From positions 1,116,001-1,180,000 of the forward strand of contig NZ_CP048437.1 in NCBI RefSeq assembly GCF_010509575.1: a DNA stretch of 64,000 bases. Reading direction: 5' to 3'. Numbering within the stretch: position 1 is the stretch's first letter; the number at the start of each line of letters is the position of its first letter. Source of the stretch: Faecalibacterium duncaniae (GTDB taxonomy: Bacteria > Bacillota > Clostridia > Oscillospirales > Ruminococcaceae). The notes beneath the pieces are model-generated. The model saw only the letters and a list, made by a program, of their open reading frames with translations. It ran no database searches and was not told the DNA's origin. Both the position numbers and the translations under genes were made by a program. Shown piece by piece: positions 35,097 through 51,473 of this stretch.

Positions 35097-35252
35097 AATG
35101 GTTCCTCCGTTTTACCAACAAAATTCGGTCCCTTATCCTTAATACGAACGAACCCGCAGGAAAATTGCAGAATGCCATCCCTGCGCTCCGGATTCGGAGG
35201 AATACTTTGTGATCTTCCAACAGCATACAGTAGCACCAGGGGGGTGCTGTGT

Positions 35253-35705
35253 ATGCTATTAACGCTGCTGCAATTTTTCGCTACAAAATTTCTGGTGCTG
35301 GCGCTGCATCTGGAAGCGGGGAGTTTCCCAAAGCCGCTCAGTGCGCGGGAGGAAATCGAAACCTTTGCGGCTCTGCGGGCGGGGGACAGGAGTGCGCGGG
35401 AGAAGATCATCCGGCACAACCTGCGGCTGGTGGCCCATGTGGCAAAGAAATACTACGCCCAGCCCGGCGACCAGGAGGACCTGATCTCAATTGGAACCAT
35501 TGGGCTGATGAAGGCCGTGGATACCTTTGACATCACCCGCAAGGCGCGGTTTGCGACCTATGCCAGCAGATGCATTGAGAATGCTATCCTCACCCGAGCG
35601 AACGCCGGACTGAGAATCGGAACCATCTCCACCGCCCTCGGGGTCGTTGTCGTCCTCTTCCGGGTCTACCGGGAAGGTGGTCCAGTCGATTTCATCCTCC
35701 GGTGA
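35253..35705 (+). pseudogene. sigK: Sigma factor SigK-like, interrupted after the Ile-Glu-Asn codons
   Basis: ATG 35253 starts a 110-residue sigma-70 region 1.2-2 segment: FPKPLSAREEIETFAALRAGD, HNLRLVAHVAKKYYA, EDLISIGTIGLMKAVDTFD and ATYASRCIEN, all typical of mother-cell sigma-K. Homology stops at about 35582; the frame then runs through antisense recombinase sequence to a stop at 35705. Sigma regions 2.4 to 4 are missing here and were not found elsewhere in the window. Sigma-K genes of Bacillus and Clostridioides are split at this same codon neighbourhood by the skin element. Without excision the product cannot bind promoters. Confidence 0.85.
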
Positions 35706-37340
35706 ACCGAAGAGCACCACATGCGCCACCTTGCCGTCCCACACCACCTTGCGCACCACCGTGCGGATGGCAGCGCGCTTCTGCGTCACGGTCATGTCGT
35801 CGATGTTGTCGTGGAACACGGTCAGCAGCTGCCGCATCACGTCAAACTCGATGCCGCCCAGAACACCGCTGTCGGTGAGGCTTTCCAATTCCCGGATGCG
35901 GGAACTCAGGGTGGCATCCTGTGCATTCAGTTCCTCGATGCGCTTTTTCAGGTGGACAGCAGCGGTGCTGTCGCTGAAGTCAGCCAGCGAATCGATCAGT
36001 GCATTGATCTTCCGCTGCGTCTCGGCCTGCTCTTTGCGCAGGGTGGAAAGCTTGGTCTCAAACTCGGAGCGGTTGCCTGCGTGGGCGGACTTTGCCTTTT
36101 CCAACTGCTTCATAAAGTCGCTGGAATGGTCGGCAAGGTGCTTGACCTGTTCGCAGATGGCAGCATCCAGCAAATTGCCGTTGGCATTCCGGACATTACA
36201 TAACTCTCTCCGGCTGCGCTCCTTCAGTTTGCACATATAGGGAAAGACCACCTGCCCATCGGCAGTTTTGCGCCCGGTGACCTTCGGGTACATCCGGCTG
36301 CCGCAGGAGCACCACAGCAGGCCGGTGAGCAGGGCTTCGTTGCCGCGGGACTTGTGGTAGGATTTGGATTTGTTCCGCTCCAGCGACTCCTGCACCCGAA
36401 TCCACCGGTTCGAGGAGATGATGCCGGGGTGCTCGCCCACCGAAACGATCCATTCGCTGATGGGATTGTAGACCGTAGCACGGCCTTTTTCCTGATCGCT
36501 GCGGTTGTAGGCCAGCACGCCGCGCACACCGTCGAAATCGGACTCCGGGGCGAACAGTTCTGCCTCATTGTCCACAAAATACTGATAGGCGTCCTTGTCT
36601 GCAATCAGGTAGACAGGATTCTGCAAAATCGACTTGATGGAAAACCGGGTGAACGAACGCCCGGTTTTTGTTTTGATGCCCTGCCGCAGCAGCTCGGTCT
36701 CGGTCATGGTCAGAGAATCGTACTGCTCGTAGAGGTCGAAAATTTTGTAGATGATCTCTGCTTCGTCCGGCAGCAGCTTGAGCTTGCAGGCCTTTTTGGT
36801 CTTGCCGTCCACCGTGATGCTCTTGACGCTCTCGGAAGCATAGCCCGTGGGGGTCGTGCCGCCCAGCCAGCGCCCGGTCTTTGCCAGCTCGTGCATGTTG
36901 TCCCGGATGCGCTCCGCGATGGTCTCACGTTCCAGCTGACTGAACACGGATGCGATGTACATCATCGCGCGGCCCATGGGGCTGGACGTGTCAAAACTTT
37001 CACGGATGGACACAAAGTCGATGCCCAGCCGTCCCAGTTCTTCAATCAGGCTGGAAAAGTCGCTGATGTTGCGGCTGATGCGGTCCAGACGGTAGACCAC
37101 AATGGCCTTGAATTTCCGGTCCTTGGCCGCAGTCATCATCTTTTTGAAATCCGGGCGGTTCAGGTTGCCGCCGGAAAAGCCCTCGTCCTCAAAGACAACG
37201 GTATGTTCCGCGGCAGCATCGCCGTAGTGAGTGCGGATATATTCGCGGCAGAGGTCGATCTGATTTCCGATACTTTCGCCCTTGCCGGTGTAGCGGGATT
37301 TGCGGGAATAGATGGCAATGGTGTCGGCAGTTTTGGCCAT
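35487..37340 (-). CDS. Large serine recombinase (SpoIVCA-like)
   Basis: 617 aa starting at ATG 37340 (GGAAAGGAG upstream). An N-terminal resolvase domain with catalytic Ser12 in AIYSRKSR, plus YRLDRISRNISDF and QLERETIAERI, is followed by a recombinase domain, a zinc ribbon (LLWCSCGSRMYP) and a coiled coil (about 440-510). The last 30 or so codons (after about 35583) read antisense into the sigK remnant, so the C-terminus is created by integration. Orientation opposite to sigK, directly at the junction, parallels spoIVCA in skin elements. It is likely the integrase of this element. Confidence 0.92.
   Translation of the reverse strand: MAKTADTIAIYSRKSRYTGKGESIGNQIDLCREYIRTHYGDAAAEHTVVFEDEGFSGGNLNRPDFKKMMTAAKDRKFKAIVVYRLDRISRNISDFSSLIEELGRLGIDFVSIRESFDTSSPMGRAMMYIASVFSQLERETIAERIRDNMHELAKTGRWLGGTTPTGYASESVKSITVDGKTKKACKLKLLPDEAEIIYKIFDLYEQYDSLTMTETELLRQGIKTKTGRSFTRFSIKSILQNPVYLIADKDAYQYFVDNEAELFAPESDFDGVRGVLAYNRSDQEKGRATVYNPISEWIVSVGEHPGIISSNRWIRVQESLERNKSKSYHKSRGNEALLTGLLWCSCGSRMYPKVTGRKTADGQVVFPYMCKLKERSRRELCNVRNANGNLLDAAICEQVKHLADHSSDFMKQLEKAKSAHAGNRSEFETKLSTLRKEQAETQRKINALIDSLADFSDSTAAVHLKKRIEELNAQDATLSSRIRELESLTDSGVLGGIEFDVMRQLLTVFHDNIDDMTVTQKRAAIRTVVRKVVWDGKVAHVVLFGSPEDEIDWTTFPVDPEEDDNDPEGGGDGSDSQSGVRSGEDSILNASAGIGRKPRLAGDVKGIHGLHQPNGSN
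35575..35590. other. Probable attachment-site junction in sigK
   Basis: The homology break falls in ATTGAGAATGCTATCC, at the codons for Ile-Glu-Asn. In Bacillus subtilis sigK the skin recombination core, AATGA, lies at the equivalent position. The exact crossover cannot be fixed without the other junction. Confidence 0.6.
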
Positions 37341-37499
37341 AAGATACTCCTTTCCTGTTGTCCGGTGGCCGTAGATGCGGCTATTGTAGCATGGCAGGCC
37401 ATCTTTGTAAAGAAAAATAACGATAGTCATACATATTTCATCATACTACGAACGGAGGTGTCAAGGATGTGACAAGGCAGGATAAGCGAGGAAACCAGA

Positions 37500-38108
37500 A
37501 TGTTTGACTATTTCTATGGGCAGTCGGGCGAGATGTTCTCGTATTTCCGGGTGCCCAAAATTTTATTCCGGGACATAAAATTCAAGGATCTGTCCACCGA
37601 TGCCAAAACGCTGTACGGCATCCTGCTGGACCGCATGGGGCTGTCGGTGAAAAACGGATGGCTGGATGAGCAGGGAAGGGTGTATATCATTTTTCCTGTG
37701 CAGGAAGTGATGGATGCACTGGGCTGCGCAGACAACAAGGCAACCAAACTGTTCCGGGAATTGGAAAAGTTTGGTCTGATTGAGCGCAAACGGCGCGGGC
37801 TGGGAAAACCCAATCTGATTTACGTCAAAAACTTTGCAGACCCACGATGCCGCAATCGTGAAAAGAACGGTTCCGGTGCCGCGGATTCAGCGCAGCAGGA
37901 AACGGCAAAATCACGAGGAAATAAGACTGAGTGGAATAAAACCGAGGGGAGTGAACCTGATCCTTTCTCTTCCGACGCGGAGAGCGAACCGGATGAGCGC
38001 ACACGGCTGGAAGCGTATTTTATGCAATCGTTGGAAGTGGACTTGCTGCTCCGGGTCTGCCCGGATGAGGAAGACACCATTCAGATAATCCAAATCGGAA
38101 CGATATAG
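37500..38108 (+). pseudogene. Replication initiator RepA, N-terminal part only
   Basis: 202 codons, of which the first 190 or so resemble conjugative-element/plasmid initiators: FYGQSGEMFSYFRVPKILFRD, LSTDAKTLYGILLDRMGLS, the winged-helix GCADNKATKLFRELEKFGLIERKRRGLGKP. The usual C-terminal domain is missing; the frame ends 27 bp after entering the convergent ATPase gene. Together with the topB stub it marks a decayed integrative conjugative element. Confidence 0.75.
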
Positions 38109-39304
38109 TTATCTCGATCTATGATGCCGACTTTTGGCTTCATGCAGACGATAGCACCTTTCCCGCGTGGGACAGAGGCTTTATCCAGCAAAGAAAATAC
38201 CTTCGTCAGTTCGGTGCCGGGATTCGAGGTCTTTTTGATTTCAATGGGATTCAGAACACCATCCTGCTCCAGAACAATGTCAATCTCTTTTGCATCTTTG
38301 TCGCGGTAGTAGTACAAAAACGTCTCTCTGCCGGTATTCAGATAGGTTTTCGCAATTTCGGAAACAACATAGTTTTCGAGGATTGCACCGTTCATTGCAC
38401 CATACTCCAGAACTTCTGCGCTACTCCACTTGGTCAGATAGCAGACCAATCCCGTATCATAAAAATAGAGCTTGGGGGTTTTTACCAAACGCTTCAGAAG
38501 GTTATTGGAGTAGGGGTGCAGATAGAAGATGATACCCAGTGTTTCCAGAATGTGCAACCAATCTTTTGCCTGCTTCTGATTGATGTCCGCATCCTGTGCA
38601 ATTTCGGCAACATTCAGCATCTGGGAGCAGCGCGCTGCAACCGCTGTCATGAAACGCAGAAATTTCAGCGCATCGATGGCATCTGAAAGCTCTTTTACGT
38701 CGCGTTCAATATAGGTAGAAAGGTAGCTGCTGTAAAAAATCTGGCTGTTGGTATTTTTTCCGCTTGCAATAGCGGGCATGGAGCCCCGATAGATACGCTC
38801 AAAGATATCTTTGGTATCTGCGGGCACAGCTTTTTCCTCGCGGTTCAGCAGAGCGTCCAAATCCACACGGAAAGGCTCGGTATCTGCACCGTTTATTTCT
38901 GACTGCGAAAGAGAAGTCATTGACAGCACTGCAACACGCCCGGCAAGTGATTCCTGTACCCCGTGCATCAGCTTGAACACCTGTGACCCGGTCAGCCAAA
39001 AGGCACCCGGCTCATGGTGAGTATCTGCATAGACTTTGATATAGGTAAATAGTTCCGGTGCATATTGAACCTCATCAATCAGAACCGGCGGCTTATGCAG
39101 CTGCAAAAACAATTCTGGATCATTTTTTGCGAGTGCCCGCTCGTTCAAATCGTCCAGTGAAACATATCCACGGGAAGTTCCTTCCATGAGCTTTTGCAGC
39201 ATAGTTGTTTTTCCTACCTGCCGGGGGCCGGTCACAAGCACAACCGGATATTCCTGCGTGACCTGCTGCACAACTTTCTCAAGACTTCTTGTAATGTAAC
39301 TCAT
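38081..39304 (-). CDS. AAA ATPase with DUF4143 domain
   Basis: 407 aa from ATG 39304 (AGGTGATC upstream). Walker A VTGPRQVGKTTMLQKL near 25-40, Walker B PVLIDEVQYAP, a sensor segment AFWLTGSQVF, and a C-terminal DUF4143 nuclease-like domain with EIDIVLEQDGVLNPIEIKK (PD-(D/E)XK-like spacing E-x-D...E-x-K). These archaeal-type ATPases are widespread, mobile and of unknown role. Its higher AT content and position between the truncated repA and topB stubs suggest it arrived by insertion. Confidence 0.85.
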   Translation of the reverse strand: MSYITRSLEKVVQQVTQEYPVVLVTGPRQVGKTTMLQKLMEGTSRGYVSLDDLNERALAKNDPELFLQLHKPPVLIDEVQYAPELFTYIKVYADTHHEPGAFWLTGSQVFKLMHGVQESLAGRVAVLSMTSLSQSEINGADTEPFRVDLDALLNREEKAVPADTKDIFERIYRGSMPAIASGKNTNSQIFYSSYLSTYIERDVKELSDAIDALKFLRFMTAVAARCSQMLNVAEIAQDADINQKQAKDWLHILETLGIIFYLHPYSNNLLKRLVKTPKLYFYDTGLVCYLTKWSSAEVLEYGAMNGAILENYVVSEIAKTYLNTGRETFLYYYRDKDAKEIDIVLEQDGVLNPIEIKKTSNPGTELTKVFSLLDKASVPRGKGAIVCMKPKVGIIDRDNYIVPIWII

Positions 39305-39429
39305 ATTGATCACCTGCTTCCAATCTCGGCCGATTTTTCTTATGATTCCATTTTAGCCGAAAACTTTGTCTTTTTCAAGTACATCTGGGTGTTTTAATCG
39401 TATTATAAAAAGTTAGGAGTTGATGCTTA

Positions 39430-39756: not shown

Positions 39757-40056
39757 ATGCGATTTGATGCAAAAGAATTCGGCGGACGTATCCGCGATTT
39801 GCGGAAAAAGAAGGGGATTACACAGGAACAGTTGAGTATAATGCTGAACGTTAGTGCGAACCATCTTGCAAAAGTTGAAACGGGAAGCCGCTGCTGCTCG
39901 ATTGAGTTGCTGCAGGATCTTTCGTCCTGCCTGAATGTCAGAACGGACTATCTGCTGAACGGAGATGCACCGCATAACAACCATCTGAGGGAAAGACTGA
40001 CGTTTCTTGCACAGGAATTAGAAAAGATTACGGCGGACCTCCCGGTATGGGGATAG
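39757..40056 (+). CDS. XRE family transcriptional regulator
   Basis: A 99-residue protein with an XRE helix-turn-helix (residues 9-66: FGGRIRDLRKKKGITQEQLSIML, NHLAKVETGSRCCSIELLQDL) and a short helical tail. AAAGGA precedes the ATG. Such stand-alone regulators are common in integrative elements; no operator was identified. Confidence 0.88.
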   Translation: MRFDAKEFGGRIRDLRKKKGITQEQLSIMLNVSANHLAKVETGSRCCSIELLQDLSSCLNVRTDYLLNGDAPHNNHLRERLTFLAQELEKITADLPVWG

Positions 40057-40141
40057 GAAAAGCAAAATCCTCTTTTTCAATGCCCAAAAGCGTGGTAGAA
40101 TAGGTAAAAGATTCAGTATCTGAAAAACGGAGCGCGCAACA

Positions 40142-40603
40142 ATGAAGATTCTGGTCAGCGCCTGCCTGCTGGGCGAAAACTGCAAATACAGCGGCGGAAA
40201 CAATTACAATCAGGCGGTTTGTGATTTTGCGCGGGGGCATCAGGTGGTTCCGGTCTGCCCGGAGGTTTTGGGCGGCCTGCCCACACCGCGGTGCCCGGCG
40301 GAAATCGTGCAGGGCGTTGTCACGAACAAAGAGGGCATCAATGTGGACCGGGAGTTCCGAGCGGGCGCAGCCAAGGCCCTTGCCATCGCAAAAGAAAATG
40401 GGGTGGAGCTTGCCATCCTGCAATCCCGCAGCCCCAGCTGCGGCGTGAAGGAAATTTACGATGGAACGTTTTCCGGGACAAAGATTCCCGGACAGGGCGT
40501 TTTTGCCAAGATGCTGATGGACGAAGGCGTCCGTGTTCTGGATGCCGGGGAATTGCCTAAAATTATCTTGAAAAATGAGGACGGAAAATGTCAATCAAAC
40601 TGA
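40142..40603 (+). CDS. DUF523/TudS family protein (thiouracil desulfidase-like)
   Basis: A 153-residue protein starting MKILVSACLLGENCKYSGG, with CPEVLGGLPTPRCPAE and SRSPSCGVKEIYDGTFSG. These cysteine motifs match DUF523, whose characterised member TudS uses a 4Fe-4S cluster to desulfurate thiouracil. A role in thiolated-base recycling is therefore plausible, on family grounds only. Its 3' end overlaps the truncated HAD gene by 16 bp. Confidence 0.88.
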   Translation: MKILVSACLLGENCKYSGGNNYNQAVCDFARGHQVVPVCPEVLGGLPTPRCPAEIVQGVVTNKEGINVDREFRAGAAKALAIAKENGVELAILQSRSPSCGVKEIYDGTFSGTKIPGQGVFAKMLMDEGVRVLDAGELPKIILKNEDGKCQSN

Positions 40604-41130
40604 TTTGCAGCGACATTGACGGTACGCTGCTGCAATACGGCAAAAAGGAACTGGAAGACGAGATCTTTGAGCAGATACGGGAGCTGCATCGGCGCGGCAT
40701 TCTGTTTTGCCCGGCATCCGGTCGGCAGTATACCAGCCTGCGCAAGCTCTTTGCACCGGTGGCAGACTGCTGTGTGTTTCTTTGTGAGAACGGCGGCGTG
40801 ATCTATAAGGGCGAACAGTGCATCGCCAAGAATCCGATGCCCCGTGCACTGGCCGAAGAAATTGCCAACGACCTGTGGACCCGCAGCGACGGGCAGGGCG
40901 AAGTGATGCTTTCCGGCCAGAATACTGCATACCTGATGGAGCGGGGTCTGGGAATGCTCCAGCGCATCCAGTTCATCGGGAACAACTATCAGATCATTCA
41001 TGACCCGTCTGAGGTGCCGGAGGAGATCACAAAAGTATCGGTGTATCTGCACGAAGGCGTAGAATCTTACACGGAACGGTTTGTCCCACGATGGAAAGAG
41101 GCAAACTGCGCTGACAGGAGAATTTTATGA
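40588..41130 (+). pseudogene. HAD phosphatase (Cof-type), C-terminally truncated
   Basis: 180 codons; MSIKLICSDIDGTLLQYGKKEL carries the catalytic DxD motif I and the CPASGRQY motif II. Cof-type HAD-IIB enzymes are about 265 aa, and motifs III and IV (the Lys and the GD(x)xND acidic loop) are missing. The frame ends abruptly and its last codons overlap the next gene's ATG, consistent with a deletion that fused two loci. Probably inactive. Confidence 0.75.
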
Positions 41131-41714
41131 CAGAGCGCTATTGTGAGGGTGAACGGTTTGCTGACCTGTCGTTCACCGAGGAGACTTTTGAGGATTGCGA
41201 CTTTACCGACTGCGTGTTTGTGGATTGCTCCTTTACCAAATGCGAACTGGATCATACCACGCTGAACGAGTGCAAATTCGTGCGGTGTGAGATCACAGGT
41301 CTGCGCAGCACTCATTCTTCGGTGCAGTCGCTGGATTTTGATGACTGCCGCCTGAATGAAATTGAGTGGGCACCGCTGATGTCCAACGGTGCCTTCCCGG
41401 ACCCTATCAATACGCTGAAAGAGTGCAGTCTGAAATATAACACCTTCACCGAAATGAACTTTAACCGCTTCGACTTTTCGGACGGCAACGAAATTGTCGG
41501 CTCCATGTTTGCCAAATGCGAGATGCAGCTGGCGAATTTCAAGGGTGTAGAACTTCACGAAACGGAGTTCTACCAGTGTGATCTGCGCAAGGCGGATTTC
41601 CGGGATGCCGCCGGTTATAAGGTGGACATTCTGGGCAGCCGCCTGAAGGATGCGAAATTTTCCCTGCCGGAAGCGGTGAATCTGCTGGCAGATTTGAAGA
41701 TCAAACTGTCGTAA
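41127..41714 (+). CDS. Pentapeptide-repeat protein (Qnr-like fold)
   Basis: A 195-residue right-handed beta-helix protein with repeats of the A(D/N)LXX type: FEDCDFTDCVFVDCSFTKCE and later NFKGVELHETEFYQCDLRKA, interrupted near 60-100 by a loop, as in the Qnr/MfpA group that mimics DNA and binds gyrase. The function here is unknown. GGAG lies seven bases before the ATG at 41127. Confidence 0.85.
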   Translation: MTERYCEGERFADLSFTEETFEDCDFTDCVFVDCSFTKCELDHTTLNECKFVRCEITGLRSTHSSVQSLDFDDCRLNEIEWAPLMSNGAFPDPINTLKECSLKYNTFTEMNFNRFDFSDGNEIVGSMFAKCEMQLANFKGVELHETEFYQCDLRKADFRDAAGYKVDILGSRLKDAKFSLPEAVNLLADLKIKLS

Positions 41715-41726
41715 GAAGGAGAAAAA

Positions 41727-42179
41727 ATGCGTCAACTCATCATTGCACGAAAAGATCTGCAGATGTCTCCCGGTAAGCTGGCGGCGCAGTGCTGCCACGC
41801 TTCGCTGGCATTCCTCACCGACCCCATCGGCATGGGACAGAGCGTGAAACCCATCGAGAAAGACGGAGAAATTACCGGCTATCGGGCAGAAATCATGTTG
41901 GAGAAAGCAACCTATGAAGAATGGTTCGATGGCTCTTTTACCAAAACTATCTGCGGGGCAAAGAACCGCAATCAACTGCCGAAAGCAAAGACAATTGCCG
42001 AGGAATTGGGACTGGTGGAAAACAAAGACTTCTTCCTTATCCGGGATGCCTGCCACACCGAGCTGGAGCCGGAAGAATTTGATGAAAACGGAGGAGGCAT
42101 GACCCTGACCTGCATCGGTTTCCGCCCGCTGCCGGATGAAATTGCACATCAGATCAGCCATAAGTTCCATTTGTATTGA
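41727..42179 (+). CDS. Peptidyl-tRNA hydrolase, Pth2 family
   Basis: A 150-residue protein starting MRQLIIARKDLQMSPGKLAAQCCHAS, with GAKNRNQLPKAKTIAEELGL and FFLIRDACHTELEPEE...LTCIGFRP, the archaeal/eukaryal-type Pth2 signatures. Bacteria normally rely on Pth1, so a Pth2 in an accessory region is either a spare recycling enzyme or part of a stress module. AAGGAG lies eight bases upstream; the previous gene ends 12 bp before. Confidence 0.85.
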   Translation: MRQLIIARKDLQMSPGKLAAQCCHASLAFLTDPIGMGQSVKPIEKDGEITGYRAEIMLEKATYEEWFDGSFTKTICGAKNRNQLPKAKTIAEELGLVENKDFFLIRDACHTELEPEEFDENGGGMTLTCIGFRPLPDEIAHQISHKFHLY

Positions 42180-42194
42180 TAGAATTCCTTTATT

Positions 42195-43076
42195 TTATAA
42201 GCATTTTCCACAGTCACTGCAGCCGTTGCAGATCAACTTGCTACCGCAGGTCTCGCAGTTTGCGCGGAAATGAGGCACATAGAGATCTTCCTGCGGGATG
42301 GGGTAGCCCCAGTCGTCCACGAGGTCAAAATGAATGGGCCTGCCCTGATAGTTCATGCCGGATTTACAGGCCATTCGGCTTTGCAGCTGCTTGTTTGGCA
42401 GGTGGTAGCGCCTGCCGTCCTTGATGAACACGGTGCCGGTCTCGATAAAGCAGAATGTTACGTTGGCATCCACGCATTCCTGCCGGAGAGACTTGACCCA
42501 ATCAAAATTGCAGGGGCGGGCACCATCGTAGTTTTCGCCGCCGCAGATGACCTGCTCGATTTGCCCGGCGGAAAGGTACTGCCGGATGCTTACTGGCCCG
42601 ATGAAGGGCGCGCACATGATGCCCTTGTGTTTGAAGGGCAGGTCGAACAGGATGGGAATGCGCTCATCGGCGCGGCGCTGATTTTCACAGGTGACGTTGA
42701 AAAAGATGTTGTCCCAACCGCTGCCCCAGTCCGGCGGCAGGCACTCCCGCACCCGCTGCGGCCGTTTGGTGAGAAGGAAAAACACCACATCGCTGCGCTG
42801 GCGCATGATGTCCCACGCCTCAGCCCGCCACGGGTCGGCTTCTTCCAAGAAGAAGTCCGAGGTCATGCAGACCCGGATCTGCTCACCACTCTGGATTTTG
42901 TAGTGTCCGGTGCGGTCTTTCTGGAGCGGATAGGAAAAGCCGCTTTTCGTTTTGTAGATCTCGGCTCCGTTCTGGTCCCGCATCCGGTCGAGAAAATACA
43001 TGTAGCAGTTCTGGCAGCCCTCGCTGCACTTGACGCAGCCGTGCCATGGATTCCAGATGTCGTGCAGGAAGCTCAC
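42195..43076 (-). CDS. DUF5131 family protein (phage Gp37/Gp68-like, radical-SAM-like)
   Basis: About 293 aa. The N-terminus HDIWNPWHGCVKCSEGCQNC carries the CxxCxxxCxxC cluster of this family, and SFLLTKRPQRVRECLPP-like plus ICGGENYDGARPC segments follow. The last 20 residues form a second Cys-rich knuckle (CETCGSKLIC, CSDCGKC). The start is uncertain: GTG 43076 is tight against AGAGGG, and a CTG seven bases later would be better spaced. It is divergent from the macrodomain gene with both promoters in 115 bp. Confidence 0.78.
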   Translation of the reverse strand: MSFLHDIWNPWHGCVKCSEGCQNCYMYFLDRMRDQNGAEIYKTKSGFSYPLQKDRTGHYKIQSGEQIRVCMTSDFFLEEADPWRAEAWDIMRQRSDVVFFLLTKRPQRVRECLPPDWGSGWDNIFFNVTCENQRRADERIPILFDLPFKHKGIMCAPFIGPVSIRQYLSAGQIEQVICGGENYDGARPCNFDWVKSLRQECVDANVTFCFIETGTVFIKDGRRYHLPNKQLQSRMACKSGMNYQGRPIHFDLVDDWGYPIPQEDLYVPHFRANCETCGSKLICNGCSDCGKCL

Positions 43077-43094
43077 CCTCTTTCTGTACCTATT

Positions 43095-43161
43095 ATTATA
43101 ATAGCTGCGCGGACAGGAAACAAGAGCACCCCTTGCACTGCCCCGCCGGATGTGATAGGAT
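43095..43161. promoter_or_regulatory. Divergent promoters, DUF5131 and macrodomain genes
   Basis: Minus strand: TTGTTT (43118-43123) and TATAAT (43095-43100), 17-bp spacer. Plus strand: TTGCAC (43133-43138) and TAGGAT (43156-43161), 17-bp spacer. The two -35 boxes are 9 bp apart, so a shared regulator is possible. Confidence 0.65.
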
Positions 43162-43190
43162 GAAGAAAACCATGTGAGGGAGGAACCACC

Positions 43191-44222
43191 ATGCCGTTTC
43201 TGATGATCCGCAACGACATCACCAAGGTGGCGGCGGATGCCATCGTCAACCCGGCGAACCGGAACCTTTTGCAGGGCAGCGGCACCAGCCGTGCCATCTA
43301 TCAGGCAGCAGGGGAGCAGGAGCTGACCGCCGCCTGCGAAGCCATCGGCCGCTGCGATTTGGGCAGAGCCGTGTGTACCCCGGCGTTCGGTCTGCCCGCA
43401 AAATATATTTTCCATGCAGTCTGCCCGGCGTGGCACGGCGGCGGGTTCGGCGAAGCTGAACAATTAGCCGGTGCATACCACTCTGCACTGAAATTAGCCG
43501 CAAAGTACCACTGCGAGAGCGTGGCCTTTCCGCTGCTGTCCAGCGGGAACTACGGCTACCCCAAGGAGCAGGCCTTCCGCATTGCGGTGGATACCATCAC
43601 GCAGTACGTCATGGAGCACGACCTGACCGTGTATCTGGTGCTTTACGACCGGGGCTCGCTGGCCGTGAGCCGGAAGCTGTTCGCCTCGGTGGAGGAGTAC
43701 ATTGACGACCACTATGTAGCACAGAACGATGAAAGCTACGGATTTGGCCGTCGGCGCAGGGAATTGTCAGAGCAGCGGAGGCTTCTGGAAGAAGATGCTG
43801 CCCTGCCGATGCTAGGTGCAGTTCCGGCACCCGCCGCGGCACCCAGGACAGCCCGCAGTCTGGAAAGCCTGATGGACAACCTTGGCGAGAGCTTCACCAC
43901 TCGGCTGCTGCGGCTCATTGACGAGCGGGGGCTGAAAGACTCCACCGTGTACAAGCAGTCCAACATCTCCCGGCAGCATTTCTCCAAAATTCAGTGCAAC
44001 CGCGACTACAACCCCAAAAAGAAAACCGTGCTGGCCTTTGCGGTTGGGTTGCACCTGTCCGAAGATGAAACCATCGACCTGCTCAAGAGTGCGGGCTATG
44101 CCTTTTCGGATGGCTCCAAGCGGGACTGGATCGTGCGGTATTGCCTGGAACACAAAATCTATAACATCAATCAGGTCAATACGCTATTGTTTGAATACGA
44201 TCAGGAACAGCTGGGTGCGTGA
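43191..44222 (+). CDS. Macrodomain protein with C-terminal helix-turn-helix
   Basis: 343 aa. Residues 1-175 form a macrodomain with the ADP-ribose-binding elements DAIVNPANRNLLQGSGTSRA and VAFPLLSSGNYGYP. After a charged, Pro/Ala-rich linker (about 185-225) the C-terminal 120 residues (LMDNLGESFTTRLLRLIDERGLKDSTVYKQSNISRQHFSKIQ) look like an XRE-type DNA-binding domain with a helical extension. It may bind or remove ADP-ribose and regulate the cluster. GGGAGG lies upstream. It precedes VWA and ARH genes. Confidence 0.85.
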   Translation: MPFLMIRNDITKVAADAIVNPANRNLLQGSGTSRAIYQAAGEQELTAACEAIGRCDLGRAVCTPAFGLPAKYIFHAVCPAWHGGGFGEAEQLAGAYHSALKLAAKYHCESVAFPLLSSGNYGYPKEQAFRIAVDTITQYVMEHDLTVYLVLYDRGSLAVSRKLFASVEEYIDDHYVAQNDESYGFGRRRRELSEQRRLLEEDAALPMLGAVPAPAAAPRTARSLESLMDNLGESFTTRLLRLIDERGLKDSTVYKQSNISRQHFSKIQCNRDYNPKKKTVLAFAVGLHLSEDETIDLLKSAGYAFSDGSKRDWIVRYCLEHKIYNINQVNTLLFEYDQEQLGA

Positions 44223-44237
44223 TTTGTCGCCTGCCCG

Positions 44238-44266
44238 TTGACCTTTTGCCCTTCGGTTTGTGGTAT
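44238..44266 (+). promoter_or_regulatory. Promoter of the VWA-ARH pair
   Basis: TTGACC 44238-44243, 17-bp spacer, TGGTAT 44261-44266, located between the macrodomain and VWA genes. Confidence 0.55.
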
Positions 44267-44313
44267 CCTTTTGCCAACGAAAGCGATACACCACAAAACG
44301 GAGGGCATTTATT

Positions 44314-44973
44314 ATGAAGAAAAATCTTACCGAGCTTGTTTTCATTCTGGACCGCAGCGGTTCCATGGGCGGGCTGGAGCAGGACACCATCGGCGGGTTC
44401 AATGCTATGCTGACCCGGCAGAAGGAGCAGGAGGGCGAGGCCAACGTGACCACCATCCTGTTCGACCATGAGGTGCAGCTGCTGCACGACCGTTTTCCGC
44501 TGAAGGCTGTTGCGCCGCTGACCGAAAAGGACTACTACGTCCGGGGCTGCACGGCGCTGCTGGATGCCATTGGTTATGGCATGGAAAAGATGGTGAATAT
44601 CCAGCGCCATCTGCCGGAGGACGAGCGTGCCGAAAAGGTCATCTTTGTCATCACCACCGACGGACTGGAAAACGCCAGCAAACGGTTTGGCTATGAGAAG
44701 ATCCGCCGGATGATCGAGCGGGAAAAAGAGCAATACGGCTGGGAGTTCCTGTTCCTCGGTGCCAACATGGACGCCGTGAAGGAAGCTGCCCGCTTCGGCA
44801 TCGGGGCAGACCGGGCGGTGCGGTTTGAGAATGACGCACAGGGCGTGGCGGTCAACTACCACGTTGTTAGCGAGACAGTCTCCCGGATGCGGGAAGCACC
44901 CTGCTGCGCGTCCATCGGCGCAGAGTGGAAAGAACAAATCGAAGCTGATTTCCAGAAGCGGCATCATAGGTAA
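44314..44973 (+). CDS. VWA domain protein
   Basis: A 219-residue single-domain protein. The MIDAS metal site is complete: DRSGS at 13-17, the Thr in GCTALLDAIG, and the Asp in ITTDGLENAS. No membrane segment or signal peptide is visible, so it acts in the cytoplasm as a metal-dependent scaffold. GGAGGG precedes ATG 44314; an upstream in-frame codon lacks a site. The ADP-ribosylglycohydrolase gene follows 14 bp later. Confidence 0.88.
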   Translation: MKKNLTELVFILDRSGSMGGLEQDTIGGFNAMLTRQKEQEGEANVTTILFDHEVQLLHDRFPLKAVAPLTEKDYYVRGCTALLDAIGYGMEKMVNIQRHLPEDERAEKVIFVITTDGLENASKRFGYEKIRRMIEREKEQYGWEFLFLGANMDAVKEAARFGIGADRAVRFENDAQGVAVNYHVVSETVSRMREAPCCASIGAEWKEQIEADFQKRHHR

Positions 44974-44987
44974 GGGAGGAAACAGCC

Positions 44988-45791
44988 ATGTTAGGAGCAA
45001 TCTTGGGTGACATCGTGGGCAGTCCCTATGAATTTGACCACAACAATTACAAGCACAAGGATTTTCCGCTGCTGAGCGAGAAATCGCACTTCACCGATGA
45101 TACCGTCATGACCGCTGCGGTGGCAGTTGGTCTGATTGACGGAAAGGGTCTGCCGGAGAGAACATTTTGTGCAGTGCAGCATGAAATGCGGTTCTGGGGC
45201 CGTGAATATCCCCATGCCGGTTACGGCGGGATGTTCCGCCGGTGGCTGCACGCAGAAAATCCGAATCCCTATGGCAGTTTCGGCAACGGCTCGGCTATGC
45301 GGGTGTCGGCAGCGGGCTGGCTGTTCGACACGCTGGACAAAACGCTGGAAATGGCAAAAGTGACCGCTGAAGTCACCCACAACCACCCGGAGGGCATCAA
45401 AGGCGCGCAGGCCACGGCGGCAGTGATTTTTCTGGCCCGTACCGGCCACAGCAAGCCGGAAATCAAACAATATGTGGAGCAGACCTTCGGCTATGACCTG
45501 AACCGCACCTGCGATGAGATACGCCCGACTTATCATCATGTGGAGACCTGTCAGGAAACTGTGCCGGAAGCAATCATTGCTTTTCTGGAAAGCGTCAGTT
45601 TTGAGGATGCACTTCGCAATGCGGTCTCTCTGGGCGGCGACAGCGACACCCTTGCCTGCGTCACCGGCGGCATTGCCGAAGCTTTTTACGGGATGCCGCA
45701 GGAACTGCGGGACGAGACTTTGAAACGTCTGCCGGAGGATATCCGGGAAGCATATGAACTGTTGTGCTTCATGATTGCCAAGATGATATAA
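44988..45791 (+). CDS. ADP-ribosylglycohydrolase (ARH/DraG family)
   Basis: A 267-residue enzyme expected to remove ADP-ribose from a target. Metal-binding signatures are in place: HFTDDTVMTAA near 33-43, YGSFGNGSAMRVS, and GGDSDTLACVTGGIAEA near 205-221. GGGAGG precedes the ATG. It is co-transcribed with the VWA gene, next to a macrodomain gene, giving two proteins in a row that handle ADP-ribose. No ADP-ribosyltransferase toxin is seen nearby. Confidence 0.92.
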   Translation: MLGAILGDIVGSPYEFDHNNYKHKDFPLLSEKSHFTDDTVMTAAVAVGLIDGKGLPERTFCAVQHEMRFWGREYPHAGYGGMFRRWLHAENPNPYGSFGNGSAMRVSAAGWLFDTLDKTLEMAKVTAEVTHNHPEGIKGAQATAAVIFLARTGHSKPEIKQYVEQTFGYDLNRTCDEIRPTYHHVETCQETVPEAIIAFLESVSFEDALRNAVSLGGDSDTLACVTGGIAEAFYGMPQELRDETLKRLPEDIREAYELLCFMIAKMI

Positions 45792-45862
45792 AATGCGATG
45801 ATGCGACTGAATTTTGAAAAGATTGCATAGGATTTTATAAAAGTATTATTCTTTCGTGAATT

Positions 45863-45905
45863 TTAGCACTCTTCTATTGACACTGCTAATGAACGGTGCT
45901 ATAAC
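45863..45905 (+). promoter_or_regulatory. hsp20 promoter with degenerate CIRCE (HrcA) operator
   Basis: TTAGCACTC (45863-45871), nine bases, then CACTGCTAA (45881-45889). The CIRCE consensus is TTAGCACTC-N9-GAGTGCTAA, so the left half is perfect and the right half matches 7 of 9. It covers the -35 box of a strong promoter: TTGACA 45877-45882, 17-bp spacer, TATAAC 45900-45905. About 115 nt of leader follow before the start codon. Confidence 0.8.
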
Positions 45906-46024
45906 AGTGGCGTGCTCAGGAGGAAGGGCAAAAGGAGAGCCGCAAGGCTCCCCGGAAAGCCTTTCCGAGTGGACGCTTCAGATTTTTTGCCCCGACCCGA
46001 ACGCCGGGATTGGAGGAATGATTT

Positions 46025-46489
46025 ATGCTTATGCCGACTGTTTTCCATGAAAACCTGTTCGATGATTTCTTCGATCCGTTCTGGAATGACGCTGCACTGG
46101 AACGTATGATGAACCGTGAGGCTCGTGATACCTTTGGTAAGCGTGGTGCAAACATGATGAAGACCGATGTCAAACAGACGGACAACGGCTACGAAGTAGC
46201 TGTTGACCTGCCGGGCTGCAAGAAGGAAGACGTTCAGATGGATCTGAACGACGGCTACCTGACCATTCAGGCAGTGCGCAGCCACAGCAACGACGAAAAG
46301 GATAAGAAGGGCCGCTATCTGCGGCGCGAATCCTTCTCCGGCACCTGCGCGCGCAGTTTCTACGTGGGCGATGTGAAGAAGGAAGACATCCACGCAAAGT
46401 TCGAGGATGGCGTCCTGCACGTCGAGCTGCCTGCTCCTCAGCAGACGAAGGCTTTGCCTGAGAACCCGAACCTGATCGAGATCGAGTAA
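46025..46489 (+). CDS. Hsp20/alpha-crystallin small heat shock protein
   Basis: A 154-residue holdase chaperone. The N-terminal arm (FHENLFDDFFDPFWND) is followed by the alpha-crystallin domain (about 45-140: MKTDVKQTDNGYEVAVDLPGCKKEDV, RYLRRESFSGTCARSFYVGD, GVLHVELPA) and a short tail ending in IEIE. GGAGG seven bases before ATG 46025. Expression is probably heat-inducible through HrcA given the CIRCE-like operator. Confidence 0.93.
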   Translation: MLMPTVFHENLFDDFFDPFWNDAALERMMNREARDTFGKRGANMMKTDVKQTDNGYEVAVDLPGCKKEDVQMDLNDGYLTIQAVRSHSNDEKDKKGRYLRRESFSGTCARSFYVGDVKKEDIHAKFEDGVLHVELPAPQQTKALPENPNLIEIE

Positions 46490-46499
46490 AACGCCGGTC

Positions 46500-46574
46500 G
46501 TGTGCGCCAAAGCACAACGCACATAAGATGCCCCCGGAGAGCCGCAACAAGCCCTCCGGGGGCATTTTTGTTTC
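46500..46574 (+). repeat. Duplicated intergenic terminator module, copy 1
   Basis: Starts GTGTGCGCCAA, continues through CGCACATAAG and a terminator (TGCCCCCGGAG 46529-46539 with CTCCGGGGGCA 46554-46564, loop containing AACAAGCC) to ATTTTTGTTTC. A near copy with compensating stem changes lies at 48697-48772. Confidence 0.85.
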
Positions 46575-46646
46575 GCTATCTTTTCCGCAAGGGAAAATCA
46601 TGGTATACTGAGAACAGCAACTCGGAATTTATGGAGGTACTTCACT

Positions 46647-46742
46647 ATGGAATACAAACGCTTTGGCGGTAGGCTCCTTGTCCGCATCGACAAAGATGAG
46701 GAAATCGGTGAAACAAATTTGATTTTAGGGGGACAAAGATGA
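46647..46742 (+). pseudogene. PPC (DUF296) domain protein, N-terminal stub
   Basis: A 31-codon frame, ATG 46647 after GGAGG, reads MEYKRFGGRLLVRIDKDEEI, the typical start of PPC-domain DNA-binding proteins (normally about 140 aa), then breaks off and stops over the ATG of the YitT gene (ATGA). Most of the domain has been deleted. It could now serve for translational coupling of yitT. Confidence 0.6.
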
Positions 46743-47596
46743 GTGATGTAAAAGAAAAGACCGGCGCAGTCCTGAGGGAGACGGCAGTCCTGACCGGGGC
46801 GGTGGCGATCATTGCGGCGGGCGTTTTCTTTTTTCTGGTGCCGAGCCATACATCCGTCAGCAGCATTTCCGGCCTTGGCATCGTGCTGTCCAATTTTGTG
46901 CCGCTGCCCTTGTCGGTCATTACGATGATCCTGAACGTCGTGCTTCTCATCATCGGGTTCTTTACCTGCGGCAGAGAATTTGGCGCAAAGACCGTATACA
47001 CCAGTGTGCTGCTGCCGGTGTTTCTGGGGCTGTTTGAAAAGCTGTTCCCGGAGTTCGGCTCGATGACCGGCAGTCAGGAGCTGGACGTGCTGTGCTATAT
47101 TCTGGTGGTCAGCATCGGGCTGAGTATTTTGTTCAACCGCAATGCATCCTCCGGCGGGCTGGATATCGTGGCAAAGATCATGAACAAGTACCTGCACATG
47201 GAATTGGGAAAAGCCATGTCTCTGTCGGGAATGTGTGTGGCGCTTTCCGCGGCCCTGGTCTACGATAAAAAGACCGTGGTGCTGAGTATCCTCGGTACTT
47301 ACTTCAACGGCATCGTGCTGGACCATTTCATCTTTGATAACAGCATCAAACGCCGCGTCTGCATCATCACCGAAAAAGAGGAGACGCTGCGTCAGTTCAT
47401 CCTCCATGACCTGCACAGCGGTGCGACCATGTACGAGGCCATCGGTGCATACAATCTGGAAAAGCACAACGAGATCATTACCATCGTGGACAAGAGCGAA
47501 TATCAGAAGCTGATGAACTTTATCAACCGGGAAGACCCCAAGGCTTTTGTTACCGTTTACAATGTGTCCAGCATGCAGTATCAGCCCAAGATCTAA
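46739..47596 (+). CDS. YitT family membrane protein
   Basis: A 285-residue protein with five hydrophobic helices in residues 15-195 (including RNASSGGLDIVAKIMNKYL, the YitT signature) and a C-terminal soluble DUF2179-like domain (about 205-280, RRVCIITEKEETLRQFIL...ATMYEAIGAY). Function is unknown in this widespread Firmicute family. A GGGGGA site precedes the ATG. Confidence 0.88.
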   Translation: MSDVKEKTGAVLRETAVLTGAVAIIAAGVFFFLVPSHTSVSSISGLGIVLSNFVPLPLSVITMILNVVLLIIGFFTCGREFGAKTVYTSVLLPVFLGLFEKLFPEFGSMTGSQELDVLCYILVVSIGLSILFNRNASSGGLDIVAKIMNKYLHMELGKAMSLSGMCVALSAALVYDKKTVVLSILGTYFNGIVLDHFIFDNSIKRRVCIITEKEETLRQFILHDLHSGATMYEAIGAYNLEKHNEIITIVDKSEYQKLMNFINREDPKAFVTVYNVSSMQYQPKI

Positions 47597-47659
47597 TCGG
47601 CGGAGAGCTGCGTGGTATACTCAAGTCCGGAAATATCAAAGCGCATGGAGGTAAAAAGC

Positions 47660-48694
47660 ATGCTGACCTATACCTATGTTTCAGAGGGGACGTTTGCCCT
47701 GATGGAAAAACCAAAGCCGGTGCTGCAGCACGAGCGGGACGCCATTGTAAAGGTGACCCTTGCCAGCATCTGCTCCAGCGACCTGCACATTAAGCACGGC
47801 AGCGTGCCCCGGGCGGTGCCCGGCATCACCGTAGGGCACGAGATGGTGGGCATCGTAGAAGAAGTGGGCAGTGCGGTGACCAATGTGAAACCCGGCGACC
47901 GGGTGACGGTGAACGTGGAGACCTTCTGCGGAGAGTGCTTCTTCTGCAAAAAGGGCTTCGTGAACAACTGCACCGATCAAAACGGCGGCTGGGCACTGGG
48001 CTGCCGCATCGACGGCGGGCAGGCGGAGTATGTCCGGGTGCCCTTTGCGGATCAGGGACTGAACAAGATCCCGGACGGCGTCACCGATCGGCAGGCGCTG
48101 CTGGTGGGCGATGTGCTGGCCACCGGCTTTTGGGCGGCACGCATTTCGGAGATCACCCCCGAGGATACCGTGCTGATCCTCGGTGCAGGGCCGACTGGCA
48201 TCTGCACGCTGCTGTGCGTCATGCTGCACAGTCCCAAGCGCATCATCGTCTGTGAAAAGGACGCAAGCCGCCTGCAGTTCATCCGTCGGCACTACCCGCA
48301 GGTGCTCACCGTGCAGCCGGAGGACTGCGCCGCCTTTGTGCGTGCCCACAGCGACCACGGCGGGGCCGATGTGGTGCTGGAGGTGGCAGGGGCAGACTCC
48401 ACCTTCCGGCTGGCATGGGAGTGTGCACGGCCCAACGCCATTGTGACGGTGGTGGCACTGTACGATAAGGCGCAGACCCTGCCGCTGCCGGAAATGTACG
48501 GCAAAAACCTCACCTTTAAGACCGGCGGCGTGGACGGCTGCGATTGTGAAGAAACGCTGCGTCTCATCGCAGAAGGCAAGATCGATACCGAACCGCTCAT
48601 CACCCACACCTACCCCCTGCGCCGGATCGCAGAGGGCTACGAGCTGTTTGAAAAGAAACGGGACGGCGTGATCAAGGTGGCAGTGGAGTGCTGA
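47660..48694 (+). CDS. Zinc-dependent alcohol/polyol dehydrogenase (MDR superfamily)
   Basis: A 344-residue enzyme. The catalytic zinc ligands are in ICSSDLH and GHEMVG, and the structural zinc loop CGECFFCKKGFVNNC is complete; the Rossmann motif is GAGPTG near residue 176. It belongs to the threonine-dehydrogenase/atypical ADH group. The ATG at 47660 follows GGAGG; an extension upstream lacks a site. Substrate not determinable. Confidence 0.88.
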   Translation: MLTYTYVSEGTFALMEKPKPVLQHERDAIVKVTLASICSSDLHIKHGSVPRAVPGITVGHEMVGIVEEVGSAVTNVKPGDRVTVNVETFCGECFFCKKGFVNNCTDQNGGWALGCRIDGGQAEYVRVPFADQGLNKIPDGVTDRQALLVGDVLATGFWAARISEITPEDTVLILGAGPTGICTLLCVMLHSPKRIIVCEKDASRLQFIRRHYPQVLTVQPEDCAAFVRAHSDHGGADVVLEVAGADSTFRLAWECARPNAIVTVVALYDKAQTLPLPEMYGKNLTFKTGGVDGCDCEETLRLIAEGKIDTEPLITHTYPLRRIAEGYELFEKKRDGVIKVAVEC

Positions 48695-48696
48695 CG

Positions 48697-48772
48697 GTGT
48701 GCGCCAAGTCACACACGCACATAAGGTGGCCCCGGAGAGCTGTAACAAGCCCTCCGGGGCCATTTTTGTTTC
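48697..48772 (+). repeat. Duplicated intergenic terminator module, copy 2
   Basis: GTGTGCGCCAA ... CGCACATAAG ... stem TGGCCCCGGAG (48727-48737) with CTCCGGGGCCA (48752-48762), loop again AACAAGCC, then TTTTTGTTTC. The stem differs from copy 1 at both arms but keeps pairing. Confidence 0.85.
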
Positions 48773-48867
48773 CCGACATCTTTTCCGCAGCGGCAGGGCG
48801 TGGTAGAATAAGGGCAGAACCGATCCACAGGTGAAAAAATCGAACTTCAGAGAGAGGAGATGTTTCT

Positions 48868-50607
48868 ATGCAGTCCGATGAACTGAAACGCCGGATCTCG
48901 GCAGGCAGAGGAGATGCTCTGGCCGATCTGGTTTTGAGAAATGCCAGAATCGTCAATGTGTTTACCGATGAGATCGACACCGCTGACATTGCCATCAGCG
49001 GAAATTCGATCGTGGGCGTGGGAACGTATCATGGCCGGAAAGAAGTTGATCTGCACGGCAAATATGTCTGCCCGGGCCTGATCGATGGGCATATCCACAT
49101 CGAAAGCTCCATGCTCTGTGGTCCGGCCTTCGAGCAGGCAGTGCTGCCCCACGGTACCACTGCGGTGGTCACAGACCCGCACGAGATCTCGAACGTTGCG
49201 GGGCTGGAAGGCTTGGATTTTATGCTGGAAACGACAAAAAATCTGACCCTTTCGGTTTATTTCATGCTGCCCTCCTGTGTTCCGGCCACGGATCTGGATG
49301 AATCCGGTGCGGTGCTGAACGCAGAACAGCTCCGGCCTTACTACGGCGATCCCCGTGTGCTGGGGCTTGCGGAACTGATGAATGCCTACGGAACGGTGCG
49401 CTGTGACCCGAAGATCCTGCAGAAGATCCGCGACTGCACCGAAGCGGGAAAGATCGTGGATGGCCATGCGCCGCTTTTGAGCGCTAAGGACCTGAATGCT
49501 TATATTGCGGCAGGCGTTCAGTCCGATCACGAGTGCTCCAACATCGAGGAAGCCATGGAAAAACTCCGGCGCGGACAATACATCATGATCCGGGAAGGAA
49601 CGGCTGCCAAAAATATGGAGGCCCTGATGCCGCTGTTCCGGGAGCCCTATTGCAGCCGCTGTATGCTGGTGACGGATGATAAGCACCCCGGTGACCTGCT
49701 GGACAGCGGACACATCGATTCCAACATCCGTAAAGCGATCCGGCTGGGCGCAGACCCGGCAGTGGCCGTCAAAATGGCAACGCTGGTCCCGGCACAGTAT
49801 TTTGGGTTCAAGCAGCGCGGTGCCGTAGCACCGGGGTACCGGGCAGATCTGGTTGTGGTTTCTGATCTGGAATCCTTTACGGTCGAACAGGTTTACAAGA
49901 ATGGCACGCTGGTGGCCGAGCACGGAAAAACGCTGAAACCCGCACCGCTTGACATCGACCGTGTGAGATTTTCCCACGTTATGGATTCCTTTGATCTGGA
50001 TGAGATCACACTGCAGGACCTGGAACTTCGGGAAAGCGGGGAGCAGGAGCGTGTCATCTGCCTGAACCGGGGCGAGCTGCTTACGGAGGAAAAAATCATC
50101 CCGTTCCAACGGCATCCGGGCAAAGCTCCCGGTGTGGACCCGGAACACAACATCGTAAAACTGGCCGTTTTTGAGCGGCATCATCACTCCGGCCATGTGG
50201 GCATTGGCTTTTTAGGAAACTTCAGCCTGAAATGCGGAGCCGTTGCATCGAGCATCGCACATGATTCCCATAACCTGATCGTGGCAGGGGACAACGATAC
50301 CGATATGATGCTGGCCGGCAACACTGTGCGGAAAAACAAAGGCGGACTTGCGTTTGTGGCAGATGGACAGGTCGTGGCAGAACTTGCGCTTCCGGTGGCC
50401 GGATTGATGAGCACCGAAAGCGCAGAGAGCGTTGCGGCGAAAATGCAGGCGCTGAACGATGCCCTCAAGGCACATGGTGTAGCGGAAGATATCGGCATCT
50501 TTATGACCCTCGCCTTCGTCAGCCTTCCGGTCATTCCCAAACTCAGACTGAATACATACGGCATCATCGATGTAGCGCAGCAGAAAGTCGTTCCGGCTGT
50601 TTTTTAA
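48868..50607 (+). CDS. ade: Adenine deaminase
   Basis: Deaminates adenine to hypoxanthine for purine salvage. The 579 residues show an amidohydrolase fold: VLRNARIVNVFTDEI, then PGLIDGHIHIESSM with the metal-binding histidines, GTTAVVTDPHEISNV, and DDKHPGDLL further on; the C-terminal ade-specific domain contains RHHHSGHVGIGFL and VAGDNDTDM. GAGAGGAGA lies upstream of the ATG. Probably monocistronic. Confidence 0.94.
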   Translation: MQSDELKRRISAGRGDALADLVLRNARIVNVFTDEIDTADIAISGNSIVGVGTYHGRKEVDLHGKYVCPGLIDGHIHIESSMLCGPAFEQAVLPHGTTAVVTDPHEISNVAGLEGLDFMLETTKNLTLSVYFMLPSCVPATDLDESGAVLNAEQLRPYYGDPRVLGLAELMNAYGTVRCDPKILQKIRDCTEAGKIVDGHAPLLSAKDLNAYIAAGVQSDHECSNIEEAMEKLRRGQYIMIREGTAAKNMEALMPLFREPYCSRCMLVTDDKHPGDLLDSGHIDSNIRKAIRLGADPAVAVKMATLVPAQYFGFKQRGAVAPGYRADLVVVSDLESFTVEQVYKNGTLVAEHGKTLKPAPLDIDRVRFSHVMDSFDLDEITLQDLELRESGEQERVICLNRGELLTEEKIIPFQRHPGKAPGVDPEHNIVKLAVFERHHHSGHVGIGFLGNFSLKCGAVASSIAHDSHNLIVAGDNDTDMMLAGNTVRKNKGGLAFVADGQVVAELALPVAGLMSTESAESVAAKMQALNDALKAHGVAEDIGIFMTLAFVSLPVIPKLRLNTYGIIDVAQQKVVPAVF

Positions 50608-50763
50608 TACGCGATAACAAAAATACTGCCGGAGACCGACCCGAATGGTCCGTCTCCGGCAACAGAACAGTTCGTTCCTACTCTTAGAAACGAGCCGCAT
50701 CAAGAGAAAAGTTGACGGAAATTCTTATTTGATAAATCGAAATTTGACGAGGAGCGTGATTGT

Positions 50764-51471: not shown

Positions 51472-51473
51472 AA

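Follow-up and report, generated by a model that had tools for sequence, protein, structure and literature searches.

The sigK halves and the element between them

The window analyzed here is the whole stretch of 64,000 nucleotides (G000:C1:1116001-1180000) taken from the closed 3.10-Mb genome of Faecalibacterium duncaniae (G000). It carries the 5′ half of a sigK gene on the plus strand (35253..35582; codons 1 to 110, ending RCIEN), with the ATG at 35253 and the Asn110 codon at 35580-35582. The best matches of this half are the NCBIfam SigK families NF004471 (131 bits, profile positions 5-117) and TIGR02846 (126 bits, profile positions 2-116); both scores lie far under the full-length cutoff, as expected since only half a gene is present. 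The encoded sequence is 95% identical over 110 amino acids to the intact SigK of F. hattorii APC922/41-1 (G016), and after Asn110, the reading frame continues into foreign DNA. Intact relatives read RCIENE[LI]RM across this site, so the break is not due to chance. Together with the exact 3′ half, they bear out the original prediction that a sigK-like gene is cut after its Ile-Glu-Asn codons (at about 35582).

The flanking genome was searched for the 3′ half, as had been suggested. With the C-terminal half of an intact relative as the query, a match was found at G000:C1:1204226-1204576 on the plus strand (88% identity); with Glu as the exact first codon, the 3′ half spans G000:C1:1204235-1204600, equivalent to window positions 88235-88600. 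It thus lies 24 kb beyond the window end, on the same chromosome as the 5′ half and in matching orientation and frame. The expectation of a 3′ half outside the window and of an element larger than 28 kb was therefore correct, whereas the loss of the distal half, offered as the alternative, is ruled out. As in a skin-type element, sigK is split in two on one replicon, and joining the flanks in silico yields an uninterrupted SigK of 231 amino acids. A chance resemblance to sigK is ruled out by the NCBIfam matches, the in-frame 3′ half, and the joined open reading frame. A second, truncated sigK 3′-end fragment is located ~41 kb past the 3′ half (G000:C1:1245182-1245304).

Beside the left junction, and opposed to sigK as anticipated, lies a gene for a large serine recombinase (LSR) of 617 amino acids (35490..37340, minus strand) with the three domains Resolvase, Recombinase, and Zn-ribbon (PF00239/PF07508/PF13408) and a match to the integrase family PHROG 95. 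Because the 3′ end of this gene crosses the junction, the last ~30 residues of the recombinase are the antisense of sigK. The C-terminal tail (window positions 35487-35582) is encoded by whichever sigK half adjoins; it therefore varies with the orientation of the element and would change on excision. Upstream of the gene, a string matching a vegetative (sigma-A) type promoter is found (TTTACA-17-TACAAT; 37383..37411, minus strand); it is identical in a related genome, G029, while the -35 part differs in F. longum CLA-AA-H243 (G005). The F. duncaniae genome as a whole contains 28 matches to the LSR domain PF07508 in 3.1 Mb.

The left junction (35560..35603, plus strand) was placed by comparing it with empty sites and the opposite element end. 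The crossover would fall on the Asn-codon AA (35580-35581), followed by the recombinase-side arm (35582-35603). The left end reads GCATTGAGAAT|GCTATCCTCACCCGAGCG and the right end GCGCTGGGGAGAGGATAGCA|AATGAGCTGCGG, compared to, for example, GCATTGAAAATGAG in relatives with an intact sigK. The two arms agree at 19 of 22 positions, and the short core is common to both junctions, such that excision would restore sigK exactly.

From core to core, the element measures 52,652 bp, against about 30 kb in G029, because a second element of ~24.6 kb is nested within about 28 kb of the first; the 52.65-kb size is reached only through this insertion, which refines the initial skin-like reading. Divergent from the recombinase gene, a RepA_N/DnaD-like replication protein is encoded (37500..38108, plus strand; PF06970, PHROG 7882). 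It belongs to the element core and accompanies the recombinase in G029 and the recombinase stub in G030. A DUF4143 AAA ATPase follows (38081..39313, minus strand; Pfam), unmatched in the compared G029 stretch (an alignment gap). The cargo (39757..58370) encodes, according to Pfam, an HTH protein, a 2-thiouracil desulfurase, a HAD hydrolase, a pentapeptide protein, PTH2, a macro domain, a VWA domain (below the cutoff), an ADP-ribosylglycohydrolase, HSP20, YitT, an alcohol dehydrogenase, an adenine deaminase, HD and NUDIX proteins, a LacI-type regulator, and a FecCD/ABC uptake system. Outside the nested element, the recognized proteins are thus mainly metabolic, transport, stress, ADP-ribose related, or regulatory, next to the RepA_N/DnaD-like protein. 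In a second refinement, most of the recognizable cargo of the element's own is metabolic rather than phage derived.

This survey compared 52 element proteins with Pfam, leaving out open reading frames of <80 amino acids and some overlapping ones. No phage structural gene was found among the 52, so that the element does not class as a prophage, and no relaxase or transfer gene was found among them by Pfam; it is thus unlikely to be an integrative conjugative element either, although an unrecognized transfer gene may be among the many proteins with no Pfam match. PHROGs, applied to 8 whole element proteins, returned the integrase and DnaD-like matches and one marginal terminase small-subunit match on an ABC ATPase. 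Identity with a known phage or plasmid was rejected, since near-identity searches with window positions 35600-60500 matched 6 phage and 2 plasmid records over no more than small patches.

The nested element starts at 58962, runs to the window end (64000), and continues to about G000:C1:1199542, in a place where G029 is uninterrupted. Within the window, it encodes a recombinase (59005-60696) and a VapE-like protein (61191-62588), both on the minus strand. In its entirety (L075), it carries two LSRs, the VapE-like protein, FtsX/MacB-ABC genes, a histidine kinase, and a response regulator, as well as an aminoglycoside (streptomycin) adenylyltransferase (PF04439; L075:10034-10912, minus strand).

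A recombinase clade attached to sigK in both orientations

In samples of 394 genomes from the order and 391 from the class, 33 and 44, respectively, carried matches to the recombinase at an E value of ≤1e-90. Keeping at most 30 loci from each of these two samples, we compared 77 loci, namely, 54 genomic loci from the order and class, 5 from Faecalibacterium, and 18 of 41 viral-contig loci. A sigK half adjoins the recombinase at 52 of the 77 loci (43 of the 54 from order and class genomes). The recombinase lies against the sigK 3′ half, on the same strand, at 46 loci and against the 5′ half, on the opposite strand, at 6, including that of F. duncaniae; the remaining 25 adjoin neither half, some being at a contig end. 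Where identity is ≥43%, 46 of the 48 genomic loci are attached to sigK; where it is lower, 2 of 11 are. At 48 of the 52 attached loci, the junction is readable at the Asn AA (L301 was misparsed, and L279, L303, and L318 were left unresolved), and in 37 of these 48, the arm end TAGC[AG] stands directly before it. Since the parser seeks an Asn codon, only the recurring element arm beside that codon constitutes evidence.

In the recombinase tree (74 rows, three short rows of the 77 being omitted; a quick search with SH-aLRT values only), the attached rows fall in one clade with an SH-aLRT of 99 (45 C-type, 6 N-type, and 6 of neither type). The recombinase thus belongs to a Clostridia LSR clade whose members mostly sit in sigK at one base pair. 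The initial skin-like reading was to fall if no 3′ half existed and the recombinase lay far from sigK-targeting enzymes; the 3′ half is present, the recombinase groups with enzymes mostly attached to sigK, and the reading is strengthened accordingly. On IMG/VR contigs, recombinase relatives are likewise joined to the sigK 3′ half (L229, L230, and L231) or 5′ half (L232). When searched in 31 Faecalibacterium genomes, a 14-base half-site pattern recovered the six known junctions (G000, G005, G007, G014, G025, and G029; G007 is F. prausnitzii APC923/61-1); the 7 matches elsewhere were all to another sequence, GAGGATAGCCAATG.

Our survey shows a single recombinase clade inserted at one site in either orientation. 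In F. duncaniae, the recombinase arm adjoins the sigK 5′ half, and in G029 and F. longum, it adjoins the 3′ half; the recombinases of F. duncaniae and G029 are about 98% identical. The deeper tree requires 5 orientation changes, at least 3 of which are forced by well-supported branches; the shallow tree of near-identical recombinases requires 8, with only 1 so forced. Element orientation has thus flipped at least three times in the clade. Among the matches listed for Faecalibacterium recombinases, the tail is the antisense of the 5′ half in 87 of 120 and lies in the 3′ half in 14 of 120, and both tail types are interspersed on a weakly supported tree.

The reconstructed attP suggests how one enzyme may serve both orientations: it would be a near-perfect inverted repeat with only two core bases at its center, leaving orientation to be set by the core alone. 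Orientation is described as depending on the two central bases alone in the A118 serine integrase and in other integrases cited in the same paper (PMC3556126, in the part concerned). A near-palindromic attP with either an AA or a TT core could then insert at an AA target in either direction. That the two orientations differ by AA versus TT is a matter of geometry and adds no independent evidence; such evidence comes from one and the same arm being reused, to the exact base, at one point. Alternatively, the orientation in F. duncaniae could stem from a later inversion of the locus, through two rearrangements, rather than from a circle that inserted with the opposite core. In F. duncaniae, flank A is found on the opposite side of sigK, so larger inversions did happen there. 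However, both element ends are base-exact att junctions, and the opposite orientation is shared by four other genomes, two of them from one genus, and by one viral contig, which leaves a secondary inversion conceivable but somewhat doubtful.

Intact and interrupted sigK across Faecalibacterium

Among the 31 Faecalibacterium genomes, 8 have only an interrupted sigK (G000, G004, G005, G007, G008, G014, G024, and G029; the drafts G004, G008, and G024 yielded no complete 3′ half), and 5 have both an interrupted 5′ half and an intact sigK (G003, G006, G012, G026, and G030). Fifteen have only an intact sigK, cut by a contig end in two of them, and all that is found in G013 is a 3′ half at the end of a contig. 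One of the 15, G025, holds an extra 3′ half with the far element end (C1:1085477-1085827), 26 kb upstream of its intact sigK. In the search of the 31 genomes, G018 and G027 gave no sigK match. G027, which is 99% complete, is also without a SpoIIID match while keeping SpoIVA.

In the five genomes with both forms, the two 5′ halves are near copies, matching at 330 (G012), 326 (G030), 320 (G003), 318 (G026), and 310 (G006) of 330 bp. The duplication includes flanking DNA in G012 (441 bp at 99.8%), G030 (450 bp at 97.1%), and G026 (465 bp at 96.8%); it begins at about -110/-136 and stops at codon 110, or 2 bp earlier in G026. A recombinase stub stands directly before the intact sigK in G030, G010, and G012. 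In front of the interrupted sigK, G029 (49 bp, 92%) and G030 (60 bp, 83%) retain a scrap of the recombinase gene. Both scraps end at recombinase base 802, which is where the stub of G030 ends; the stub match of G010 ends at base 798.

We infer that the near-copy 5′ half beside an intact sigK in the five genomes reflects repair, the intact copies in these sister species replacing the need for excision. A double crossover through the recombinase scrap, between an excised and an unexcised chromosome, would give the structure of G030, the recombinase decaying thereafter. G012, in which the stub ends at base 312 and no scrap precedes the interrupted copy, would need another route.

That the cargo block is simply the inserted element is complicated by its presence upstream of intact sigK in other species, which leads to the repair model and to a competing view. 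In the latter, the region would be mostly ordinary chromosome, with only the recombinase, RepA_N, and the att arms being mobile and the cargo having been trapped by rearrangement near sigK. Cargo lies upstream of intact sigK, with other DNA between, in F. hattorii (G016), G010, G022, and G028; it is inverted in G025; blocks are shuffled and inverted between species; and the gene content is metabolic, all of which a trapped segment would explain. On the other hand, no comparable block exists within 40-74 kb around sigK in F. gallinarum (G020), G021, G009, G015, G017, and G014, six more distant genomes, of which G021 has only two weak protein matches (39 and 58% identity). Moreover, remnants of the element stand between cargo and intact sigK: pieces of the recombinase in G030, G010, and G012 and part of the neighboring replication gene in G022, where a scrap of the sigK promoter without coding sequence also marks the far cargo end. 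These remnants and scraps fit the arrival of the cargo with the element. We therefore hold cargo trapping to be unlikely, although it would be compatible with a skin-type insertion as a refinement of it.

Excision, sigK function, and comparison with known elements

The joined SigK, compared with 5.8 billion proteins, gave 7209 matches at an E value of ≤1e-40. The best 120 of these are all 231 amino acids long, with 1 to 4 differences from the joined protein, and the best match, P0121, is present on 24 contigs. The interrupted N-half product gave 1639 matches; among those listed, 75 of 120 carry exactly IENAILTR, and variants at this place include IENAILTP and IENAILSR. Public data thus hold joined and interrupted forms of near-identical alleles, and both states exist in nature. 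Strains that lack the element may be the source of the joined forms, as the protein alone fits a gene either excised or never invaded. Traces of the free circle were sought as well: the exact predicted attP core had no match in viral contigs, and none of the 120 recombinase proteins listed bears a circle-type tail. No convincing candidate for a directionality factor was found near the far element end; such factors are reported to share no significant sequence similarity (PMC5025042, in the part concerned).

Considering the two halves, the exact ends, the in-frame product, the same-site family in both orientations, and the purifying selection described below, we regard the feature as probably a skin-type sigK-intervening element, inserted by an LSR at the sigK AA, whose excision would restore full-length sigK. 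The recombinase would have integrated a circle into the IEN-E codons at their AA, and recombination between the two ends, with their direct AA cores, would release a 52.65-kb circle. The recombinase, probably together with a directionality factor, may excise the element during the sigma-E/SpoIIID mother-cell program, which would then still matter in Faecalibacterium.

Both sigK halves are under purifying selection against the nearest relatives, with dN/dS values (NG86) of 0.04-0.10. For the N-half of F. duncaniae, dN/dS is 0.044 versus G016 and 0.073 versus G025, and for the C-half, it is 0.096 and 0.077, respectively. Between the F. duncaniae C-half and the extra C-half of G025, both on the same element end, it is 0.09 (dS, 0.31). 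Against more distant species, it reaches 0.13 (N-half) and 0.29 (C-half). This preservation of both halves suggests that excision still takes place and that sigK remains in use. Upstream of sigK, a sigma-E/sigma-K-like -10 box, CATACAGT (35224..35231, plus strand), matches CATANNNT, which we take to be the sigma-E/K -10 consensus. This pattern lies within 60 nt upstream of sigK in all 27 regions compared (23 genomes, many of the regions being related and hence not independent), against 5% for single-base shuffles. SpoIVA is present in all 31 genomes and SpoIIID exceeds the cutoff in 28; an apparent premature stop in the F. duncaniae SpoIIID was rejected, being the normal stop codon. Alpha/beta small acid-soluble spore proteins (SASPs; PF00269) had no match in any of the 31.

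An alternative is that a plain mobile element occupies a decaying gene, sigK being a safe site, sigma-K being unneeded, and the joined copies coming from element-free strains. The genus is indeed described as non-spore-forming (PMC6295017, PMC8166934, and PMC11261667, in the parts concerned), in keeping with the original prediction of a lineage not known for spores; PMC6295017, which calls the species non-sporeforming, does not contain the word sigK in its main text. The absence of SASP matches in the genus and of sigK matches in G027 and G018, the joined SigK found on contigs of up to 152 kb, and the decay of the C-half in G029, truncated by a stop after 98 codons, point the same way. Such decay sits poorly with the low dN/dS of both halves against the nearest relatives, the promoter box in 27 of 27 regions, the retention of SpoIIID and SpoIVA, and the intact sigK beside the interrupted 5′ half in five genomes; we consider it improbable.

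Going further than a skin-type insertion, we propose tentatively, as an idea that may well prove wrong, that Faecalibacterium still runs a sigma-E/SpoIIID/sigma-K mother-cell program in which skin is truly excised and which leads to a differentiated state, either spore-like but lacking SASPs or of another form, and that in the near-palindromic attP of the sigK-targeting clade, an AA-to-TT core change reverses the entire element; the opposite skins of Bacillus and Clostridia would then require no separate kinds of elements. Faecalibacterium being among the most abundant human gut bacteria, a skin-interrupted sigK with its promoter box, SpoIIID, and SpoIVA, and no SASPs, makes a hidden differentiation program directly testable. 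The survey also shows that, within Clostridia, one recombinase clade usually lands in sigK and that its orientation there has flipped repeatedly, and several species suggest how a host keeps the element yet frees sigK from needing excision.

The element is of a known kind, skin; what is new is the host genus described as non-spore-forming, the metabolic cargo, the orientation flips, whose record is unusually clear, and the apparent repair. No earlier report of a Faecalibacterium skin element was found in the open-license papers searched. In the B. subtilis skin (spoIVCB/spoIVCA/spoIIIC), the recombinase end is on the sigK 5′ half, opposed to sigK. By gene arrangement, F. duncaniae resembles it, with sigK split by an LSR element and the recombinase on the 5′ half. 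It differs in its non-spore-forming host, as described, in its mostly metabolic rather than prophage-like cargo, and in the sigma-A-type promoter match of its recombinase.

The skinCd element of Clostridioides difficile (PMC5025042, in the sections on skin) has the recombinase CD1231, which is immediately upstream of the sigK 3′ half and vegetatively expressed, and a regulated directionality factor, CD1234. It is in the opposite orientation to the B. subtilis skin, and the same source takes the different sites and orientations of the two as independent insertion. An LSR-mediated sigK interruption is common to skinCd and Faecalibacterium, and by arrangement, G029 and F. longum resemble it, the recombinase lying directly upstream of the 3′ half; to judge from its promoter string, expression of the Faecalibacterium recombinase may also be vegetative. 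The F. duncaniae element, at 52.65 kb, is in the opposite orientation to skinCd.

The gin element in gerE of Bacillus cereus ATCC10987 is likewise reported as a sporulation-gene-intervening element without phage genes and with AA at the predicted cleavage site, but it targets gerE instead of sigK and has three recombinases (PMC5595907, in the part concerned). Finally, sigK also serves as the integration site of prophages, as described in part for site A of C. tetani (PMC5553647) and an Alicyclobacillus phage (PMC13141910); unlike the Faecalibacterium element, these are prophages, in genera known for spores.
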